NCBI GenBank assembly: GCA_019636555.1
Contig: JAHBXH010000001.1
Span: 2,204,928 to 2,268,927, forward strand
DNA length: 64,000 nucleotides
Reading direction: 5' to 3'
DNA from: Phycisphaeraceae bacterium
Lineage (GTDB): Bacteria > Planctomycetota > Phycisphaerae > Phycisphaerales > UBA1924
Of the stretch, positions 27,973 to 38,148 are shown piece after piece. Numbering within the stretch: the first letter of the stretch is position 1; the number at the start of each line of letters is the position of its first letter. The notes beneath the pieces are model-generated. The model did not search any database and was not told where the DNA came from. It was given only the letters and a program-made list of their open reading frames with translations. Position numbers and translations under genes: made by a program.

Positions 27973-28044
27973 GCGGGCGTAGTTCAGCGGTAGAACGTCA
28001 GCTTCCCAAGCTGAATGTCGCCGGTTCGATCCCGGTCGCCCGCT
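27973..28044 (+). tRNA. tRNA-Gly (anticodon CCC)
   Basis: Acceptor GCGGGCG pairs with CGCCCGC. The D arm is GTTC..GAAC, and the anticodon arm TCAGC-TTCCCAA-GCTGA gives anticodon CCC. The T arm is GCCGG-TTCGATC-CCGGT, and the discriminator T is usual for glycine. CCA is not encoded. The biosynthetic cluster ends 12 bases further on. Confidence 0.94.
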
Positions 28045-28056
28045 TTGACGCAGACT

Positions 28057-28941
28057 TCAGTGCTTGCGCCACTGACGTCCCCACCAGTCATAAGTGATCT
28101 CGGGACCGCGAGAACGCAGGCCAAGCTCGTCGAGCAGATATCGGATTCGCCCCGGACAAGCTCGAATTCCCAGAATTCGAAGGTTGTGCAACCAGCGAAA
28201 TCTCGGAGAATAGCCGGATCGCTTTGTGATCCTCAGGGCTTCCGACTTGTACTCCGCCAAGTTGCGCGACGTCTTCTGATTCGGATGGTAGCGGAATCCG
28301 GCCAACGGGACATCGACGCCCCAAATCTCTGCCAGCGGAGCGAAGCGGCACCAAAGCTCGTAATCGCCGGCGGCGGAAAGCGAGCTATCGACTCGAGCTC
28401 CGGCGCGCTGCCATAGGCTGCGTCTCCAGAAAGTTCCCTCCTGCTGGATAAAGCCAAATCCGTACCAACCCGCGATCGGAAGATAGTCCCCGCGACGAAT
28501 GCCTGCCGAGCTGACCTGAGCGAGCGGGCTGAGTTTGACCACCGCATCGTGCTCGTCGATGACGCAGGGATACAGCGTCGTGAGCCATTCCATTTCCGGG
28601 AATTGACGGAAGAGACTCCCGACCAACCGCAACGTACCCGGCAGAAGCAGGTCATCGGCGTTAATCCACCCCATTATGTCCGCGTCGATATTGGCAAATC
28701 CCTTGTTGAGCGCGTCGTACATACCTCCATCCGGTTCGATCAAGACATGATCGATCTTGTGCTTCCAGCGGGCGAGCACATCCCCGGTGTTGTCGCTCGA
28801 ACCGCCGTCGACGACCGCATAGCGCAGATTGGGATAGTTCTGGTCGAGCACGGAACGGATGGTGCGCTCGATGAATCTGCCGCAGTTGAGAGACGGCGTG
28901 ACAAGAGCGAAGCTGGGCAGAGTTTCGTTGCCGGATGTCAA
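28057..28941 (-). CDS. family 2 glycosyltransferase (distal)
   Basis: A 294-residue GT-A fold glycosyltransferase. VTPSLNCGRFIERTI begins the nucleotide-sugar domain, DGGSSDNT lies at 45-52 and the metal motif NADD at 94-97. It transfers a sugar from a nucleotide donor in the cytosol. The TTG at 28941 is chosen because TTGA overlaps the stop of the upstream FkbM gene; an ATG at 29004 would run 64 bases into it. It closely resembles the other cluster glycosyltransferase (shared FWRRSLW and LLPGTLR/FLPGAFR), suggesting a tandem duplication. Confidence 0.87.
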   Translation of the reverse strand: MTSGNETLPSFALVTPSLNCGRFIERTIRSVLDQNYPNLRYAVVDGGSSDNTGDVLARWKHKIDHVLIEPDGGMYDALNKGFANIDADIMGWINADDLLLPGTLRLVGSLFRQFPEMEWLTTLYPCVIDEHDAVVKLSPLAQVSSAGIRRGDYLPIAGWYGFGFIQQEGTFWRRSLWQRAGARVDSSLSAAGDYELWCRFAPLAEIWGVDVPLAGFRYHPNQKTSRNLAEYKSEALRITKRSGYSPRFRWLHNLRILGIRACPGRIRYLLDELGLRSRGPEITYDWWGRQWRKH

Positions 28942-29717
28942 GCGTAATTCACGTATTTGAATTCTTCGCTCCGCTTGGGAACAAAGAACAGGTCCATTTG
29001 CCACAGCGTGCGGTCGTAAACTCTCCAGAGCGGCTCCGAAAAGTCTACCACTCCGAAACCAAGCCGGTCGAGGAATGCGACCATTTCATGCCACATCAGC
29101 GCGTTGTCGCTCAACCGAAAGTTGTACGTTTCGATCACGAGAATCTCGGTTTGTTCGAGCGTGCGACGAGCGCCCTCGAGTATCGGAACCTCAAATCCGT
29201 GCGTGTCGAGCTTAAGCAGGAATGGTCCTTGCCACGCACGTTTCGCTAGCTCGTGATCAATGCTTGTAACGGGGATCTTGATTGTCTCTTTGTCGGTCGG
29301 GTGTTCGCTCGCCGAGCCGGCGAATTCCCCGCTTGGTTCAAAGTAGACCATCCCGTCCGCACGCGGTCCCGCCGCGGAAATGCAGAACTCGGCGCCCGGA
29401 TGCCCGGCGCAATATGCCTCGAGAGATTTGCGATGCAGTTCCTGCGCCTCGATGAGAAGATAATTCGCGCCCGGAAACACGCTCCTCGCAGCGGCCGACC
29501 ACCGACCATCCGATGCACCAATATCGACGACTGTGCTCACCTGGTGACCGCGGTCACGAACAAGCGTGAGCGCCCGGAGAGTGCTTGCGGCATCGCGAAC
29601 ACGGGTCTCCAATTCTGGGCTGGTGAGACTGGCCGCCGCTTGGCTCGGAGCAGCGGGTGCCCAGATTCGGTTTGCGGCCCGGTGCAGCGCGCCGCTGATC
29701 ATTCTACGAACAGGCAT
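28938..29717 (-). CDS. FkbM family methyltransferase
   Basis: A 259-residue SAM-dependent methyltransferase. VVDIGASDG (63-71) is motif I, IEAQ (89-92) the acidic SAM-binding turn, and LLKLDTHGFEVPILEGA with VIETYNFRL the FkbM-specific segments. FkbM enzymes usually O-methylate sugars, polyketides or cell-surface glycans. The longer upstream frame to 30317 is a shadow of the next gene. It is sandwiched between two related glycosyltransferases, so it probably caps or modifies the sugar they add. Confidence 0.87.
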   Translation of the reverse strand: MPVRRMISGALHRAANRIWAPAAPSQAAASLTSPELETRVRDAASTLRALTLVRDRGHQVSTVVDIGASDGRWSAAARSVFPGANYLLIEAQELHRKSLEAYCAGHPGAEFCISAAGPRADGMVYFEPSGEFAGSASEHPTDKETIKIPVTSIDHELAKRAWQGPFLLKLDTHGFEVPILEGARRTLEQTEILVIETYNFRLSDNALMWHEMVAFLDRLGFGVVDFSEPLWRVYDRTLWQMDLFFVPKRSEEFKYVNYA

Positions 29718-29779
29718 TCTTGATTCCGTGTGGTAGGCACTTCCGATCCCGGTCGGGCAATTCGTTTGAGTGACAAACT

Positions 29780-30763
29780 CTACGTTCTCTTCCTCGCGAT
29801 TCGGTCGGCAAAGGATCGCGCCCAGGATTGCGCCACAGATTCGAGAACATACGCGAGGTTGTCGATCCGATACCAAAGCCGGCGCGTGCGGTCGAGGGGC
29901 GCCCGGAGGCGATCCACCTCGCGCTTTCCGACCGAGTGCGCGACGCGGACGCTCTTTTGAAGCGGGTGCGTTCGAAATGCTCCAAGCGTGCGCGGCAGCC
30001 TGCAGAACTTCGCACCGGCGTGATGAAATCGGAGTATCAACTCCCAGTCGATCAAGAAGTCGAATTCGGTATTGACGCGTGCGCCCGTCCGATTCCAAAG
30101 CGATCTGCGCCAGAATAGGGTTTCCTGGGGGATGTACTGGCGCCAGAGATATGCCGCGGATCGGTGCGGCGGAAGCACCCATCTGCCCACCTCGTCGCCG
30201 TTCGTATCGATAATGATCCGATTGCCGTAGACCACGTCGACTTCCGGATGCTCGCGAAACCATCGCGCCACATAGCGGAATGCGCCCGGCAAGAAGAGAT
30301 CGTCCGAATTGAGCCACGCCATGATTTCGCCGCTGGTCAGCGCAAACCCCTTGTTGATCCCGTCGGCCTGCCCGCGGTCCGGCTCGGAAATCCAGCGCGT
30401 TATTCCCGCGGCTGACCGCAGAACGTCGATTGAATTATCGGTGGAGCCGCCGTCGATGACAACGTATTCCAGCCGCGGATAGCGCTGGCCGGTCACGCTC
30501 TCGATGGCGCCCCTGAGCCAACGTCCTTGGTTGAAGCTGGGCGTCACGACCGAAATCAGCGGCGGGTCAATGAGCGCAGCCTCGAGACTCTGTTTGCTCG
30601 ATTGCTCGGAAAGCAATTCCGGGTCGGGACGGAACGGAATTGGGCGATGCTGTCCATAGACTCCGAGTTTCAGACCGAGAGGTCGGGCAAGTCGCTTCAG
30701 AACGCGCTTGATGTTCCCGCTCAGCGGCGCATCCCTGATAAGCGTTAGTTCGTCTGCGGTCAT
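29780..30763 (-). CDS. family 2 glycosyltransferase (proximal)
   Basis: A 327-residue GT-A glycosyltransferase with a 68-residue N-terminal lead. Motifs are TPSFNQGRWLRG, DGGSTDNS (104-111), DRGQADGINKGF and NSDD (152-155). It lies 46 bases after the synthetase stop and 62 bases before FkbM. It is paralogous to the distal glycosyltransferase. The donor sugar and acceptor are unknown. Confidence 0.87.
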   Translation of the reverse strand: MTADELTLIRDAPLSGNIKRVLKRLARPLGLKLGVYGQHRPIPFRPDPELLSEQSSKQSLEAALIDPPLISVVTPSFNQGRWLRGAIESVTGQRYPRLEYVVIDGGSTDNSIDVLRSAAGITRWISEPDRGQADGINKGFALTSGEIMAWLNSDDLFLPGAFRYVARWFREHPEVDVVYGNRIIIDTNGDEVGRWVLPPHRSAAYLWRQYIPQETLFWRRSLWNRTGARVNTEFDFLIDWELILRFHHAGAKFCRLPRTLGAFRTHPLQKSVRVAHSVGKREVDRLRAPLDRTRRLWYRIDNLAYVLESVAQSWARSFADRIARKRT

Positions 30764-30809
30764 TGGTCAGAATCTCGGTTTGCGGAACCACGAACAGTGT
30801 TCAGATCGG

Positions 30810-33800
30810 TCAGCGAGGAGCAACGCGAGCGCTAGGGGCGTCTACCTGCTCCATGACTCCTAGCTTTGAATGCGGCCAGCAAACGACCTCCGGATCTTGA
30901 GAAACTGAATCGAGCAACTCAACATATCGCCGAATGAAACCCCGCACCCAAGCAGGATCGTGTTTGTTGGCATCGAACATCACCGAACAACCGCTCAATT
31001 CATTGTGCGGGTCGAATGCGAGACTAAACCCCCACGGCATCGCTTCCACCCGACGCTCCAGCCATCTCAACTCAACATCCCTGAATCGCAATGGAGCCCT
31101 GTGGTCGGAAAGGCTGAAGACCGCTTGCACCTCGGGTGGATTCATCCCTTCTCGTCTCAATTCATCGCATAACTCATCGTACGGAATTTCATTTCGCGCC
31201 TGAACCTCGCTTACCAACCGTTGGGTTTCGCCAAGCCAGTGCGAAAACGGGCGGTCCGGGGTCAGCCGAAGTCGCAACGTCGCCAGGTTTGCAAAGTACC
31301 CGAATATTTGCTGTGTCTCCAGACGTGCCCGGCCCGTTGCATAGGTCCCCACCACGATGTCCCGGGTTTCAGTTTCCCAGGCCAGTTGCAAAAGGAACGC
31401 CGACAAACGGACCATGAAATAGGTTGCATCTCGCGAACGGGCGAGCGATTCCAACCGACGAGAAATGTCCGGGCTCAGTCCCCACCAGATCAGTCCGTCT
31501 TCCGGTTGAACCGCTGACCGTCCCACTCGCCGCGGGAGCTCCAAGCGCCCGGGGGGATCGGCGAGTAGGGTTCTCCACCATTGCACTGTTTCGCGATACG
31601 CGGACGCCTGACGGTCCAAGTGACGACGCTGCCACGAGGCGTAGTCAGCGTACTGGAAACTCTTTTCCGGCGACGAAGGTATCAAGCCGCCGCCGCATCG
31701 AAGCTCGTAAGTCGCCGCCACTTCTCGAAAGAAAATGCCCCACGACCACGAATCCGACACAATGTGGTGATTGACGCGCAGCAGACCGTGTTCCCGGTCT
31801 CCGAAGCGCAACAACACAATGCGCAGCAGCGGAAGCCGAGTCAAATCGAAGGGTCTTGCGACCAGCTCGCGGAAGGTCCGCGTCGCAATCTCCGCAGCCC
31901 CTGGTTCCGCCGAAAGGTCGATCACCGGAATTTCAACCTGCGCATGCGGATGCACTCGCTGAACGGGCCTGCCTTGAACCTCTTCGAATGTCGTTCGAAG
32001 AATCTCGTGTCGGTTGGCGACAGCAGAGAGGCTCTCACGGAATGCTTCAACGTCAAGTGGCCCGAGTATCTGATAGCGACAAGCGACCGTGTACCTTGCG
32101 GAGTCTTCAGGCCGCCTCGAAAACCGCCACATCCGCTCCTGGCCAAACGAGAGCGGAAGCGGGTTCGCGCGCGACTCGTGTTGGAGTCCAATCAATGCTC
32201 GGTTCTTTTCTGCTTTCGAAGTCCGCTCGATAGCCTCCGCCAGGCTCCCCAGACTCGGGTGATCGATGAACACCCGCAAATCCAGCTGCACCCCCATTGC
32301 CGCGTCGATTCGCGCCGCAATCACCGCGGCGGACAGAGAGTCTCCGCCAAGATCGAAGAAATTCGAGCCGCGCCCGACTCTTGGGCGCTTCAGCACCGAC
32401 TCCCAGATTTCTGCGATCATCGCTTCTCTTGCATTCGCGGGTGGGATGTGTGCAGATGATTCTTCGATCTGCACTTCCATCTCGTCGAGCGCTTTACCGT
32501 CGATCTTCCCGTGCGGCGTCGTCGGAAACTGCTCAAGGAACACAATCTCCGACGGGATCATGTGCCCGGGAAGCGCTGCGCGAAGCTCGCTCCGGATAGC
32601 TTCGGCACCGTTCGTTGCGCCGATGCGCCGGCAAACGAAGGCGCGAAGACGGGTTTCCCCGGCACTCTCGGAGCTCGCACGCACCACCGCTCCTTGGATG
32701 CCGATCACCCGCGATAACGCCTCTTCGACTTCGGAGATCTCGATGCGGTAGCCATGCACCTTTACCCGCTTGTCAGCACGGCCGGCGATGATCAACTCGC
32801 CGCGCTCGTTCATCCGTGCGAGATCGCCGGTGCGAAACGTCCTGGTACCGTCCGGTCCGTCGCCACCGACGAATCGCTCGGATGTCAGGTCTTCGCGGCG
32901 CCAGTATCCCGTCGACAGGAACCGGCTTCGTACCGCGATTTCTCCTTCGCCGCTTTGCGCGATTCCTTCGCTGTCGCGCCGCAGCAACAGGATTTCCAGA
33001 CCATCGGCTGCCCGGCCGATCGGCAGACGTCCTTCACGAAGCGGCGTCTCGCCGGTAACGCGGAACTGTGTGACGTTGCCCGTCTCTGATGACGAATAGG
33101 TATGCAACAGGAAACCGTGTGTGCTGAAATGCCGGCGCCACGATGCAACATCATTCCAGTTTGCGATCTCAGAGGCGAGGCGGACCGCACGCACGCATTC
33201 GATCCTCCGGTTCGCGTCAAGCGTCTGAACGAAGTGACGAAAAATCGAGGCCGCCGAAACCCAGATTGTGATCCCGTGGTCTTCGAGCCAATCCGCCAAG
33301 CCGGTCACACCCCGTTCCATGACCGGGAAGGGGCAGATCTCACCTCCGCTCAACAGGACCGACCAGAGCGTCGCCAAGCCCTGTCCACCGCTCGGCGAAG
33401 CAAGCCAGAGACTCCGATCTTCAGGCTTCAATTCCAGCCCGATCGCGAGCCGGCGAGCATTGTGCAGGACGCTCCGATGCGGTTTCATAACCGCCTTCGC
33501 CTGGCCGGTTGATCCGGAGGTATAGATCAGGAACGCGAGATCGCGCGGCGAAATCGGCAGCGACGGATTCTCTTCCGATTCACCATCGGCGAATTCAAGC
33601 CTGATCACCGGGATTTTCTTCGCCAAACTCGCAGCAAGCCGTTCATTTGCGGAATCCGCAATGATGAACGCCGGCTGCGCATCGTCCAGTGACCGTGAAA
33701 GGCGAGATTCGGGCTCCGTCGGATTCAGCACAACGGCGACACGCCCGGCTTTCAGGACGCCGATCATCGCCGAGATCAGAGGACCATCGTGCCTCACCAC

Positions 33801-34043
33801 GATCGCCACACGATCCCCGCGATCTCCGGGGCGAGCGATCAGGTGATGCGCCAGTCGATTCGCCGCGGCATTGAGCTCGGAATATGTTGGCCTCCAACTC
33901 CCCGAACCGATGGCGCACTTCGCACCTTGCAAACGAGCGACACGTTCAAAGCATGAAGGAACCGACTCGTCTTCGATCGAAACAAACGTCTCCGCGGCAA
34001 GCGGAGCGCATTCCAACGAGCTGTCCGGATTCCGCTCGATCAT
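30810..34043 (-). CDS. nonribosomal peptide synthetase module, A-T-C
   Basis: A 1077-residue single module in the order adenylation, thiolation, condensation. Adenylation: YTSGSTG (174-180), YSSSET (316-321), TGDLARM (405-411), GRADKRVKVHGYRIE (421-435), and Lys513 in HGKID. Carrier: DLGGDSLS (564-571), phosphopantetheine Ser569. Condensation: LSFGQERMW (632-640), RHEILRTTF (678-686), and active-site HHIVSDSWS (759-767), where the usual Gly after Asp is Ser. There is no starting condensation domain and no thioesterase, so the loaded acyl group is probably released by the terminal condensation domain onto a soluble amine or hydroxyl. By eye the Asp that binds the alpha-amino group (GrsA Asp235) is replaced by Gly in SPSGGQGLATLW, suggesting a non-amino-acid substrate. 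Confidence 0.9.
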   Translation of the reverse strand: MIERNPDSSLECAPLAAETFVSIEDESVPSCFERVARLQGAKCAIGSGSWRPTYSELNAAANRLAHHLIARPGDRGDRVAIVVRHDGPLISAMIGVLKAGRVAVVLNPTEPESRLSRSLDDAQPAFIIADSANERLAASLAKKIPVIRLEFADGESEENPSLPISPRDLAFLIYTSGSTGQAKAVMKPHRSVLHNARRLAIGLELKPEDRSLWLASPSGGQGLATLWSVLLSGGEICPFPVMERGVTGLADWLEDHGITIWVSAASIFRHFVQTLDANRRIECVRAVRLASEIANWNDVASWRRHFSTHGFLLHTYSSSETGNVTQFRVTGETPLREGRLPIGRAADGLEILLLRRDSEGIAQSGEGEIAVRSRFLSTGYWRREDLTSERFVGGDGPDGTRTFRTGDLARMNERGELIIAGRADKRVKVHGYRIEISEVEEALSRVIGIQGAVVRASSESAGETRLRAFVCRRIGATNGAEAIRSELRAALPGHMIPSEIVFLEQFPTTPHGKIDGKALDEMEVQIEESSAHIPPANAREAMIAEIWESVLKRPRVGRGSNFFDLGGDSLSAAVIAARIDAAMGVQLDLRVFIDHPSLGSLAEAIERTSKAEKNRALIGLQHESRANPLPLSFGQERMWRFSRRPEDSARYTVACRYQILGPLDVEAFRESLSAVANRHEILRTTFEEVQGRPVQRVHPHAQVEIPVIDLSAEPGAAEIATRTFRELVARPFDLTRLPLLRIVLLRFGDREHGLLRVNHHIVSDSWSWGIFFREVAATYELRCGGGLIPSSPEKSFQYADYASWQRRHLDRQASAYRETVQWWRTLLADPPGRLELPRRVGRSAVQPEDGLIWWGLSPDISRRLESLARSRDATYFMVRLSAFLLQLAWETETRDIVVGTYATGRARLETQQIFGYFANLATLRLRLTPDRPFSHWLGETQRLVSEVQARNEIPYDELCDELRREGMNPPEVQAVFSLSDHRAPLRFRDVELRWLERRVEAMPWGFSLAFDPHNELSGCSVMFDANKHDPAWVRGFIRRYVELLDSVSQDPEVVCWPHSKLGVMEQVDAPSARVAPR

Positions 34044-34049
34044 GTTTTT

Positions 34050-35051
34050 TCAAAGAAGTGCGTTCTTGTCCAGCACCAGCTTTCTCAGGGTGGAGTCGGT
34101 CGTTCGGACCGGATAGACCTTCGGCATCATGATGAGTTCGCTGAAGTCGGTGCGGCAGACGCCGGTGTACCCGAGCATCAATTGGAAGCGAGGCTTGACA
34201 GAATTCCTGCTCCCAAAGTGCATGCATCCCGACGATTCGATGAACATGACCGAGCCTCGCGCACCCGTGAATTCGATTGCATGACGCCGATCGACAACCG
34301 AATAGACCTCTTCGTCGGTGAAGCGATAGCCATGTCCAGGTCCCCAGTTCCCCAGCTTTGAAGACGCCTCTTGTGAAATCGAGCGAGGCAGAAAAGTCCA
34401 TGGGCCGTGCTCGCTGGTCGTGTCCTCCAGCAGTACAAGCACATAGAGATTGGGCAACGAGTAGTAGTCGAGGTGGTAGAGCTGGCTGTCGTGGGGCTTA
34501 TCCGGCTGATCGTCAAAGGCCGCGTTCGACTCCACAAAGCGAATTCCGGACGGCAGCGTTGTCGACAGCGCCGGCACACATCCGAGATACGCGCCAACAA
34601 CAGACAGCAATTCGCTCGAGGTCGCAAAGTCGAGAAAAGACGGATAGCGCTCAAGGTCTTCCGGCGTCCACACATCCTGGAAATAGCTGCGATACGCACC
34701 GGGCGAGGAGCGACGAGTGCCCGATCGCTCCGAGATGATCCGTCGTGAATCCTCCAGAACGCGGTCGAGATGAGGGAGTGTCCTTGAATCATCCCGTCCC
34801 CAGCCGTCGTTCATTTCGACCGGCTTCCGGGTGATCGGCCCGTTCTCGTCGATAAGTTTCTTCCACCGATCTTGATAGAGCGACCGCCGCAATTCGTCCT
34901 GCTGCTGGAACTTGGCCTGGTTGTACGCGAGAGCCAGTCGCATGGTGTTCCGGATTCCCAAGCAGGCCATGTGGTTCTCGTGCAGACGCTTTGCCAACGG
35001 TCGCATCTGAGCGTCGAGTTCATCAAACTTTTTTGCGTCACTGCTCGCCAT
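34050..35051 (-). CDS. PhyH-like iron(II)/2-oxoglutarate dioxygenase
   Basis: A 333-residue double-stranded beta-helix oxygenase. The iron triad is readable as His193-x-Asp195 (LYHLDYYS) and distal His278 (SGCMHFGSR), with Arg288 (KPRFQ) placed to bind 2-oxoglutarate. LLEDTTSEHGPWTFLP is typical of the phytanoyl-CoA dioxygenase family. It likely hydroxylates the synthetase substrate or product. Its stop lies six bases before the synthetase start, so the two are surely co-expressed. Confidence 0.82.
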   Translation of the reverse strand: MASSDAKKFDELDAQMRPLAKRLHENHMACLGIRNTMRLALAYNQAKFQQQDELRRSLYQDRWKKLIDENGPITRKPVEMNDGWGRDDSRTLPHLDRVLEDSRRIISERSGTRRSSPGAYRSYFQDVWTPEDLERYPSFLDFATSSELLSVVGAYLGCVPALSTTLPSGIRFVESNAAFDDQPDKPHDSQLYHLDYYSLPNLYVLVLLEDTTSEHGPWTFLPRSISQEASSKLGNWGPGHGYRFTDEEVYSVVDRRHAIEFTGARGSVMFIESSGCMHFGSRNSVKPRFQLMLGYTGVCRTDFSELIMMPKVYPVRTTDSTLRKLVLDKNALL

Positions 35052-35083
35052 TCCAGCCGCTCCTTTCTTCGTCGCGCTTCACA

Positions 35084-37027
35084 TCAGCCATAAATCGTCT
35101 GCACGCGGCAATAGAACTCCCGATCCGACGGCCCGTGTTCCGCCGGCCCCACTCCTGATGCTTTCCACCCGCCCAGTGGCGAGGCCGCATCGGCGTCAGC
35201 TGTTGCCCGATTAATCTTCAGCACGCCCGCCCGCGCTTCCAGCAGGAATTGTTCTTTCAACCGCGGTGAAGACGAGAACACCGCTGCGACCAATCCCTGG
35301 CGAACACCGTTGCACAATGCTAATGAATGATTGAAGTCGGTCGCTCGCTGCACGACGAGAATGGGCGCAAAGCTCTCCTCCTGCACGATCTCATGAGACT
35401 CGCGATCGGCAAATACGATCGTCGGTGGAAAAAACGATCCCTGATCCATCAGTTGCGAAAAGTCCGCCTGCTCCCGGTGCGGAGTCAAGGCGACCAGTCC
35501 GTCCTCACGCGCGCGGCGAAGCAAGTGTTCGGTCTCGCTTCGCTTCCGCGCGCTGATCAGAGGTCCGATGACCGTTTCGGGTTTCGACGGATCGCCCCAA
35601 ACCAGTTGCGCGGTCGCTTTTTTCAGGGCAGAAATAAAAGCTTCAAAGCAGGATTCGGCGACAATGACGCGCCGGTTCGCCGTGCAGCGTTGTCCCGCGA
35701 AGCCGAATGCGCCCTCGGCAATTTTTTCCGCCGCCGCTGTCAACTCCGCATCCTCCCAGACGATCGACGCGTTGTTCCCACCCAATTCGCCCTGGTAAGG
35801 CACACGACGGCGCGCGCAGATTTCCTGTATCGCGTAACCGGCAAGAGCAGAACCGGAGAGCGTCACTCCGTCGATCGCGTCGTCTTCGGCGAGACGCAGA
35901 GCGGTCGAGTGATCTCCGGCGCACAGACCAAGCACCCCATCGGGAATGCCCGCTTCGCGCGCGATCTCGAGCACCCGATGCGAGATGGCCGTCGCCGCAG
36001 GAGCCGGCTTCCAAACCACCGTGTTTCCGAATGCCAGCGCCGGGGCGATTTTTCCCGCAGGAATCCCGACCGGGTTGTTGTACGGGGTGATGATCCCGAC
36101 GACCCCGAGCGGCTCATATCGAAATCGCGTTTCCGCGCTCGTCGTGCTCCCAAGCGGCTGTTCCGCCATTGCCGCGGCCAGTTCGAGCAGCTCAGCGCTC
36201 CTTCGGATTTCCCCCCGAGCCTGCGCAATCGGCTTTCCGATATCGCGAACGATCAAATCCGCGAGCGGCCGGCTCTCACCGAGCAGTTTCGAAGCCCAGC
36301 GCCGCAGCAGAGCGCCGCGCTTCGTCGGCTCCTCAAGTCTCCACTGCCGCCATGCACACCTTGCCGCGCTCGCCTTTCCGCGAACTGCCGCGGCGCCGTC
36401 GATGCCGATACTCCATAATTCACGCGTTCGATCAACCGGTGAAAAGTGCGAGAATCTCGAATCCTCGCGCCCTTCTCCACCGATTCTCTCGAGCACTCGA
36501 TCCACGGAGAGGAACCGGGCCGCCCGGCGCTCCAAATAGCAGCGCGTAATCGCCGCGTGAATCGGGTCGTCGCTCGCGACAGCGTCTTCGGCGATCAATA
36601 CGCGATACCCGCGCTGGTAGGCATCAAACGCGGTCGCCCGCACGCATCCGTGCAGGTGCACTCCCGCCAGAACGATCGCGTCGCAGCCATTCGCGCGAAG
36701 TCGCCGATCGAGTTCCTCGGAACCGAACCCGCTGAAGAACCGCTTGTGAATCAACGTTTCCCCGGCGATCGGCGTGAGGCTCGGCGGCGTCTTATGCCCG
36801 GGCGTTCCTTCGACGCATCTCCAAATCTCCTTCTCTCGCCAGTGCGGCATGCGACTATCCGGCTCCCGCTGGACCGTCGTCCATACATGAATGACCGGAA
36901 TCCTCCGCTCTCTACAACTTCGCAACAAATTCGCCGCGGAATCAACAACCTTTCCCGCCGCTGGCTCGAGCCCCGCCGCGTGCAGAAAGTCTTCTTGAAA
37001 ATCAACAAGCACCAGAGCCGGTTTCAT
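35084..37027 (-). CDS. isochorismatase-like hydrolase fused to aldehyde dehydrogenase
   Basis: A 647-residue two-domain protein. Residues 1-185 are a cysteine hydrolase with its Asp9 (LVDFQ), Lys95 (HKRFFSGF) and Cys128 (VHLHGCVRA). Residues 200-647 are an aldehyde dehydrogenase with Asn in TPYNNP (315-320), Lys340, Glu414 (GELGGNN) and Cys448 (GQRCTAN). The first domain could cleave an amide or vinyl ether; the second oxidises the resulting aldehyde to an acid or CoA ester. I know of no standard enzyme with this fusion. ATG 37027 overlaps the upstream dehydrogenase stop (ATGA). Confidence 0.85.
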   Translation of the reverse strand: MKPALVLVDFQEDFLHAAGLEPAAGKVVDSAANLLRSCRERRIPVIHVWTTVQREPDSRMPHWREKEIWRCVEGTPGHKTPPSLTPIAGETLIHKRFFSGFGSEELDRRLRANGCDAIVLAGVHLHGCVRATAFDAYQRGYRVLIAEDAVASDDPIHAAITRCYLERRAARFLSVDRVLERIGGEGREDSRFSHFSPVDRTRELWSIGIDGAAAVRGKASAARCAWRQWRLEEPTKRGALLRRWASKLLGESRPLADLIVRDIGKPIAQARGEIRRSAELLELAAAMAEQPLGSTTSAETRFRYEPLGVVGIITPYNNPVGIPAGKIAPALAFGNTVVWKPAPAATAISHRVLEIAREAGIPDGVLGLCAGDHSTALRLAEDDAIDGVTLSGSALAGYAIQEICARRRVPYQGELGGNNASIVWEDAELTAAAEKIAEGAFGFAGQRCTANRRVIVAESCFEAFISALKKATAQLVWGDPSKPETVIGPLISARKRSETEHLLRRAREDGLVALTPHREQADFSQLMDQGSFFPPTIVFADRESHEIVQEESFAPILVVQRATDFNHSLALCNGVRQGLVAAVFSSSPRLKEQFLLEARAGVLKINRATADADAASPLGGWKASGVGPAEHGPSDREFYCRVQTIYG

Positions 37028-38148
37028 GCCGACACCTTGACTCCCGCCACAACCGACTGCGCCACCAACGCGCCCATCTCCCGCGTGCCGATACAGCGGC
37101 ATCCGGCCTCGGCGAGATCATCAGTCCGCCATCCGTCCGCCAGCACGCGATCGATCGCGCTCTCCACAAGCGACGCTTCCTCATCCATTCCGAAGCTCTC
37201 CCGAAGCAGCATCGCGAGCGAGAAGATCTGTGCCAGCGGGTTGGCTCGATCCGTATTCGCGAGATCCTTTGCTCCGCCGTGCCCGGTTTGGTAGACCGCG
37301 CGCCCGTCCGCGGCGAAATTCGCGGAGTACGACATGCCGCGCGATCCGAGAAACACGGCGCCCAGATCCGCGAGAATGTCCCCGACCATATTCGGAGTCA
37401 CGATGACATCGAACTCGCCAGGATGCTGAATCATCTGATACGCCGCATAGTCCGCGTTCATCATGCAGCACTCGACGCCGCTCCCCGCCCCGAGACGCAT
37501 CGTGACATCACGCCACAAGTTCGAAATCGAAGGCACGCCCCCGTCTTTCACGATGACATGCATCCTCCGGCGACGAGTCGCCGCGAGACGCAATCCAACC
37601 CCGACGATCCTCTCGACTTGATGCTGGCAATAACTGAATCGATGCTCGGCAACTCTCCCGCCGATCGGATCGACTCGATCTTCCCATTGCCCCTGATACA
37701 CGCCCCCGGCATTGTCTCGCACGACCAACATGTCTGCATGCTGCACGACGTGCGGCTTCAATCGCGCAGATTGCGCGAGCGCCGCAACCGGTCTGATCGG
37801 TGCAACTTTGCAAAACAGGTCAAACTGTCGCCGCATTTCATAGACAAACCGGCCGCCCCCCGGTCCACACAAAAGAGCTCCTCCGCGCTCGAAAATCTCG
37901 TGGCAGAATGACGCGACCTCATCGGGCAAGTTTTGAAATCCACTTCCGTCGAAACGAAACGGGCCTTCCGGTATCGCGACGCGTTCGACTTTCACACCCG
38001 CTGCTGACTCGACCGCGTCCAAAACCTCGAGTGCCGCTCGAAGCACCTCCGGGCCAATGCCCTCTCCCGGGAATATCCCCAAAAGCAACCGTCCTCGCAC
38101 TCTTCCGTTCGCTTCCCTCGGAACGATCGATTCGATCACTTTCTTCAT
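37024..38148 (-). CDS. isopropylmalate/isocitrate dehydrogenase-like enzyme
   Basis: A 374-residue beta-decarboxylating dehydrogenase. GEGIGPE (28-34), RRQFDLFCKVAPIRP (106-120), RDNAGGVYQGQ (144-154), the catalytic-type Lys201, NMVGDILADLG (253-263) and the NAD loop HGGAKDLANTDRANP (290-304) are visible. Changes from LeuB consensus (for example KDGGVPSISN in place of the usual DKANVL region) suggest a specialised substrate. It would oxidise and decarboxylate a substituted malate to a 2-keto acid. It heads the cluster operon. ATG 38148 is chosen as the last Met before the fold; GAGG about eleven bases upstream is a modest site, and longer frames to 38298 exist. Confidence 0.82.
   Translation of the reverse strand: MKKVIESIVPREANGRVRGRLLLGIFPGEGIGPEVLRAALEVLDAVESAAGVKVERVAIPEGPFRFDGSGFQNLPDEVASFCHEIFERGGALLCGPGGGRFVYEMRRQFDLFCKVAPIRPVAALAQSARLKPHVVQHADMLVVRDNAGGVYQGQWEDRVDPIGGRVAEHRFSYCQHQVERIVGVGLRLAATRRRRMHVIVKDGGVPSISNLWRDVTMRLGAGSGVECCMMNADYAAYQMIQHPGEFDVIVTPNMVGDILADLGAVFLGSRGMSYSANFAADGRAVYQTGHGGAKDLANTDRANPLAQIFSLAMLLRESFGMDEEASLVESAIDRVLADGWRTDDLAEAGCRCIGTREMGALVAQSVVAGVKVSA

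Follow-up and report, generated by a model that had tools for sequence, protein, structure and literature searches.

In LeuB, the specificity loop and Arg104 are located at the substrate, and the EntB-type members of the isochorismatase family are without the active-site Cys. Among adenylation (A) domains, those for alpha-hydroxy acids have Ala or Gly at position 235 and those for alpha-keto acids an aliphatic residue there, whereas McyG has Val at 235 yet activates Phe; in StsA, Met stands instead of the A5-motif proline (2024 review, PMC11253843). Here we analysed a cluster of seven genes in a stretch of 64,000 nucleotides from a Phycisphaeraceae bacterium, the whole of which is called the window. 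We found no description in the literature of a pathway with this gene set, and the sequence-only reading of the same DNA had likewise recognised none. It is probable, in our estimate, that four of the genes (IDH, Fus, PhyH and A-T-C) form a conserved precursor-and-loading pathway, with GT2a, FkbM and GT2b as a separate, locus-specific part.

Table 1. Genes of the cluster and the bordering tRNA gene (positions in the window)
Feature	Position	Strand	Evidence
IDH, divergent beta-decarboxylating dehydrogenase (LeuB/Icd superfamily); core gene	37024..38148	-	Pfam Iso_dh, 228 bits
Fus, isochorismatase-like cysteine hydrolase fused to aldehyde dehydrogenase (ALDH); core gene	35084..37027	-	Pfam Isochorismatase and Aldedh
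PhyH-type Fe(II)/2-oxoglutarate dioxygenase; core gene in 6 loci	34050..35051	-	HxD...H...R motif, orthologue Pfam score, Foldseek
A-T-C synthetase (adenylation, carrier, condensation); core gene	30810..34043	-	Pfam AMP-binding, PP-binding and Condensation
GT2a glycosyltransferase; probably resident gene of the site, membership doubtful	29780..30763	-	Pfam PF00535
FkbM-family methyltransferase; membership doubtful	28938..29717	-	Pfam PF05050 (Methyltransf_21), TIGR01444
GT2b glycosyltransferase; membership doubtful	28057..28941	-	Pfam PF00535
tRNA-Gly(CCC), integration hotspot bordering the cluster (context)	27973..28044	+	ARAGORN

All seven open reading frames were present between 28057 and 38148 on the minus strand, with domain identities taken from Pfam (Table 1), and successive genes either overlap by 4 bp or are separated by at most 62 bp. 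IDH and Fus share an ATGA overlap (37024-37027) in which the Fus ATG overlaps the IDH stop, and FkbM and GT2b a TTGA overlap in which the TTG start of GT2b overlaps the FkbM stop; the gaps in between are 32 bp (Fus/PhyH), 6 bp (PhyH/A-T-C), 46 bp (A-T-C/GT2a) and 62 bp (GT2a/FkbM, with the FkbM start set at 29717). The IDH start at 38148 is that chosen in the sequence-only reading and agrees with the conserved region, the frame itself reaching 38298. The short spacing and the seven members listed in that reading were thus borne out; FkbM lies between the two glycosyltransferases. Third-position GC is 0.60-0.72 in the seven genes versus 0.77-0.83 in most neighbouring housekeeping genes, PGM being likewise low (0.70).

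Seven co-directional genes are in themselves unremarkable, and what exceeds chance is the recurrence of the core. Fusion loci number 14 in total (the window, L014, L015, L016, L017 and L075 to L083), of which 13 are planctomycetal and the remaining one is from Magnetospirillum. A protein search of relatives found one full-length Fus elsewhere in the order, in genome G048, where IDH, Fus and PhyH follow each other as in the window. Three more loci came from a scan of genome contigs: a Phycisphaerae MAG (L015), Magnetospirillum moscoviense (L016) and a Blastopirellula sp. (L017). Searching with a Fus profile (E<=1e-110) gave matches in three overlapping samples: the order (8 of 400 genomes), the phylum (6 of 392) and the class (4 of 397). 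One of the six phylum matches, in G497 (L084), consists of the ALDH part only and was left out of the 14, and the only new genome of the class search, G906, seems to be that of L015; no further fusion locus came from the classes of G441 and G468. Plasmid carriage of Fus was rejected, with no match at 1e-100 among 72,556 plasmids.

IDH adjoins Fus or stands one gene away in all 12 loci with enough flank (in L081 PhyH sits between the two), and the sequence distances of the two proteins correlate (Mantel r=0.69, permutation p=0.0001, n=12). Six of the fusion loci have a PhyH relative belonging to the same subfamily. Divergence of the A domain and of PhyH did not track that of IDH and Fus, a weak comparison with few loci. 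As separate observations, an IDH-Fus variant accompanied by a HemN-like radical SAM protein and a Rieske oxygenase is found in two unrelated planctomycetes (L017:4503-8610 and L083:3531-10928), and in Magnetospirillum moscoviense (L016:2-14879) a ligase-IDH-Fus group is flanked on one side by a 2427-aa Calx-beta repeat protein and on the other by an ABC transporter plus a membrane-fusion-like protein.

The recurrence that the sequence-only reading had expected of the neighbours in related genomes is seen for the core and not for the GT2a/FkbM/GT2b end: by BLAST, no relative of these three genes was found in the other core loci examined. GT2b is a paralogue of GT2a (41% over 219 aa). In the core-less congener G004, the interval from the tRNA-Gly repeat to the PGM-transaldolase-PGI block contains just one gene, a GT2 66% identical to GT2a; in congener G006 it contains a VIT-family gene. 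Fus and the A domain were found in none of seven congeners at the thresholds used. Since the core is absent from the congeners and the site is variable, the core was either acquired there or lost; GT2a may have been in place beforehand, probably being a resident gene of the tRNA-Gly site. The pathway should be reduced to the four-gene core with the three remaining genes as an uncertain appendage.

The site itself is variable across the genus. The last 42 bases of the tRNA gene plus two more (28003-28046) form an exact 44-bp repeat beside the variable region in G004, G006 and G007, and in G007 an integrase gene adjoins the tRNA. The tRNA-Gly(CCC) by prpB (window 27973-28046; L094, L106, L107, L109) is an integration hotspot of the genus, with the 44-bp repeats marking element ends. 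The window holds no second copy of the tRNA 3' end, so that the cluster as a whole is rejected as an att-flanked island and our claim is limited to acquisition or loss at a hotspot. Citrate synthase and PrpB were also rejected as pathway genes, prpB being conserved beside tRNA-Gly(CCC) in the core-less congeners G007 and G001.

All seven genes could nonetheless belong to one pathway, in which A-T-C would attach an acid to a sugar, the GT2 enzymes would place the sugar on a glycan or small molecule, and FkbM would methylate it. The tight co-directional spacing speaks for this, as does the lone condensation domain, which requires a non-carrier acceptor, and other glycosyltransferases occur close to the core at two loci, a GT4 enzyme in L080 and a GT28-domain protein in L017, so that a glycan acceptor is possible. 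A pathway for glycan acylation or a glycosylated metabolite would be expected to keep its glycosyltransferases with the core, and such conservation was not seen. The missing relatives at other core loci and the solitary GT2a homologue at the same site in G004 make the seven-gene pathway unlikely, and they leave unsupported the earlier proposal of glycosylation and methylation by the last three genes. The four-gene core remains the reading that we favour.

The host genome contains four Iso_dh genes, of which IDH is the fourth, the other three scoring better. IDH scores 209 bits against the leuB model, under the curated cut-off of 353 bits. In alignments to LeuB, all 13 IDH sequences were without Arg104 (A, S, V, I, T or N at that position) and without the 13-residue specificity loop, and Asn102 was replaced by Lys in each. 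The same 13 sequences retain the features of the beta-decarboxylating dehydrogenase superfamily, namely the catalytic Tyr and Lys, the metal-binding Asp triad and the NAD-binding Asp, while of the LeuB set (Arg94, Arg104, Arg132 and the loop) Arg104 and the loop are gone. The low score, these losses and the three better Iso_dh genes rule out an ordinary LeuB. We infer a changed substrate with an unchanged type of chemistry, NAD-dependent oxidation and decarboxylation. The absent arginine might mirror an absent carboxylate, in which case the product could be an aldehyde, and this would account for the aldehyde dehydrogenase fused in Fus.

In the hydrolase domain of Fus, the Asp-Lys-Cys triad is invariant across the relatives in the alignment; the retained Cys rules out an EntB-type isochorismatase, and the top PDB match of the domain is 3eef, an N-carbamoylsarcosine-amidase-related protein. 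The ALDH domain has the catalytic Cys473, Glu439 and the Asn, all invariant. The dioxygenase of the window scored below the Pfam PhyH cut-off of 22 (12.9 bits, E=0.14), while its orthologue in L081 lies above it (23.8 bits), and the HxD...H...R motif is invariant in six relatives. With an AlphaFold model of medium confidence (mean pLDDT 72.6), Foldseek placed GriE and the proline hydroxylase H11 at the top of its matches, with EctD and PtlH lower, at probability 1.0 and TM about 0.4; at that TM, the predicted structure makes the assignment secure at the superfamily level alone.

Adenylating genes were present at eight fusion loci, directly adjacent in most, in agreement with the co-occurrence of Fus and synthetase expected from the sequence-only reading. 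Five are of NRPS type by Pfam (the window, L014, L075, L080 and L081) and three are AMP-binding ligases (L016, L077 and L078). The layout is A-T-TE in L014 (about 9 kb from PhyH), L075, L080 and L127, and A-T-C-T-TE in L081. In G179, IDH stands beside an A-T-TE gene on contig C24, and Fus is on a different contig, at its end. A 577-aa protein of L015 resembles a phenylacetate-CoA ligase by eye and gave no Pfam hit. Activation is not universal, because L082 and L083 have IDH-Fus with no adenylating gene nearby and none was recognised within the fetched part of L017. The loci L082 and L083 would suit a catabolic IDH-Fus pair that degrades a hydroxy acid or amide, with adenylating neighbours coincidental at variable sites; isochorismatase-like hydrolases, ALDHs and decarboxylating dehydrogenases are frequent in catabolism, and the window site is an integration hotspot. 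Against such a pair stand the eight loci with adenylating genes, mostly adjacent and of two architectures, and the lack of a transporter or regulator among the seven genes of the window, which leave it distinctly improbable. Beside the A-T-TE gene of G048 (L014:11752-13682) are a 324-aa and a 306-aa protein that resemble each other and gave no Pfam hit.

The A-T-C protein has the adenylation, carrier and condensation domains of an NRPS module (Pfam), with the carrier-domain Ser, the HHxxxD motif (here HHIVSDS) and Lys517 intact. Compared with LgrA, its A domain has Gly instead of Asp235, the residue expected for an alpha-amino acid, and Arg at 299. The five other IDH-linked NRPS A domains have Ala or Gly at 235, Arg299 is found in all six, and the A5-motif proline of IDH-linked A domains is Ser, Thr or Met. 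In A domains with no IDH in the vicinity, position 299 is Lys or Phe, or Arg in the case of L126. McyG activates Phe with Val235, so that loss of Asp235 is no proof against an amino-acid substrate; together with the change of the A5 proline, it makes an acid without an alpha-amine the likeliest substrate, most likely an alpha-hydroxy or alpha-keto acid. Arg299 would perhaps hold a second carboxylate of this substrate; its occurrence in L126, with no IDH nearby, counts against the core reading. A search of 400 genomes with an A-domain profile found ten members of the clade (about 1e-137 or better), spread over nine genomes. Fus is present in five of the nine; four of these five had contributed to the profile, leaving G179 alone as independent. 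Related standalone synthetases, A-T-TE by eye, were noted in four Phycisphaerae genomes (L128, L129, L130 and L132), with Tyr235/Lys299 codes, no IDH or Fus nearby and, in L128, an in-frame stop. G179 also encodes, away from IDH and Fus, a 1960-aa NRPS-like protein (L131:4964-10846) whose A domain (Gly235/Phe299) falls in the same wider clade.

The host genome, 95.6% complete, contains exactly one condensation domain, that of A-T-C, and no downstream partner module for it was found. As A-T-C ends in this domain without a thioesterase and has no partner module, transfer to a soluble or glycan non-carrier acceptor is the simplest reading, and the domain would most likely move the acyl group in this way. 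A single phosphopantetheinyl transferase, AcpS-sized, was found in the genome and none of Sfp size; this absence and that of any other condensation domain could mean that A-T-C is the decayed remnant of a larger NRPS in an inactive cluster, which is very improbable given the intact reading frames, carrier Ser, HHxxxD, Lys517 and all IDH and Fus catalytic residues and the single-module form of most NRPS-type relatives.

Gene set, gene order, recurrence, intact catalytic motifs, altered specificity residues and the single condensation domain were read from the sequence, and from there we infer the order of reactions, the substrate class and the acceptor of the core pathway. The hydrolase domain of Fus would probably cleave an amide or similar group to set a carboxylate free. 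Acting on a beta-hydroxy acid, IDH would oxidise its C-OH with NAD and decarboxylate the acid. The aldehyde formed, or a related one, would be oxidised to an acid by the ALDH domain of Fus, and PhyH would probably hydroxylate this acid. The A domain would then adenylate an acid lacking an alpha-amino group and load it on the carrier; Arg299 would perhaps bind a second carboxylate of this acid. In the window the condensation domain would transfer the loaded acid to a non-carrier acceptor, onto an amine or a hydroxyl, and GT2a, FkbM and GT2b may or may not supply this acceptor; in relatives a thioesterase would release the acid. The sequence-only reading is thus partly supported: its unusual acid built by the first genes fits the A domain lacking the alpha-amine-binding Asp, loading and transfer by the synthetase is reasonable with the sole condensation domain of the genome, and, of its acyl or aminoacyl decoration, a non-alpha-amino acid fits and the aminoacyl option is unlikely after the loss of Asp235. 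Its idea of precursor loading finds support here; its glycosylation and methylation steps do not.

More tentatively, and with the odds somewhat against us, we suggest that a new class of oxidatively decarboxylating dehydrogenase and Fus together supply an alpha-hydroxy or alpha-keto acid not recognised so far, from which a rare, widely scattered and as yet undescribed family of Planctomycetota metabolites is built; here the lone A-T-C would attach it to a non-carrier acceptor. If so, this would be a new precursor route for single-module synthetases and would define a dehydrogenase subclass with the diagnostic motif RFVYD-x-R...F-D...K and no Arg104. Fus would be a marker for clusters of this kind in Planctomycetota, a phylum with little-known natural products, and the lone condensation domain would offer a clean test case for acyl transfer to a free acceptor.

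With LeuB and the isocitrate/isopropylmalate dehydrogenase superfamily, IDH has in common the fold family, two of the three substrate arginines, the catalytic Tyr/Lys, the metal-binding Asp triad and the NAD-binding Asp; it differs in the replaced Arg104, the Lys at Asn102, the absent loop and the leuB score below cut-off. Fus shares Asp, Lys and Cys with isochorismatase-like cysteine hydrolases such as N-carbamoylsarcosine amidase and nicotinamidase, and differs from them in its fusion to an aldehyde dehydrogenase. The window dioxygenase has the HxD...H...R motif and predicted fold of the PhyH-superfamily 2-oxoglutarate oxygenases GriE and EctD, from which a long N-terminal helix, the sub-cut-off Pfam score and membership of a distinct subfamily tied to the core set it apart. 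The single-module synthetases for acids without an alpha-amine, EnSynA1 and StsA, resemble the IDH-linked enzymes in Gly/Ala235 and the replaced A5 proline, and the A-T-TE layout of L014, L075, L080 and L127 matches that of keto-acid enzymes such as RalA. In contrast to EnSynA1, StsA and RalA, the IDH-linked enzymes have Arg299 and are coupled to IDH and Fus, and in the window enzyme a condensation domain takes the C-terminal place of the thioesterase.
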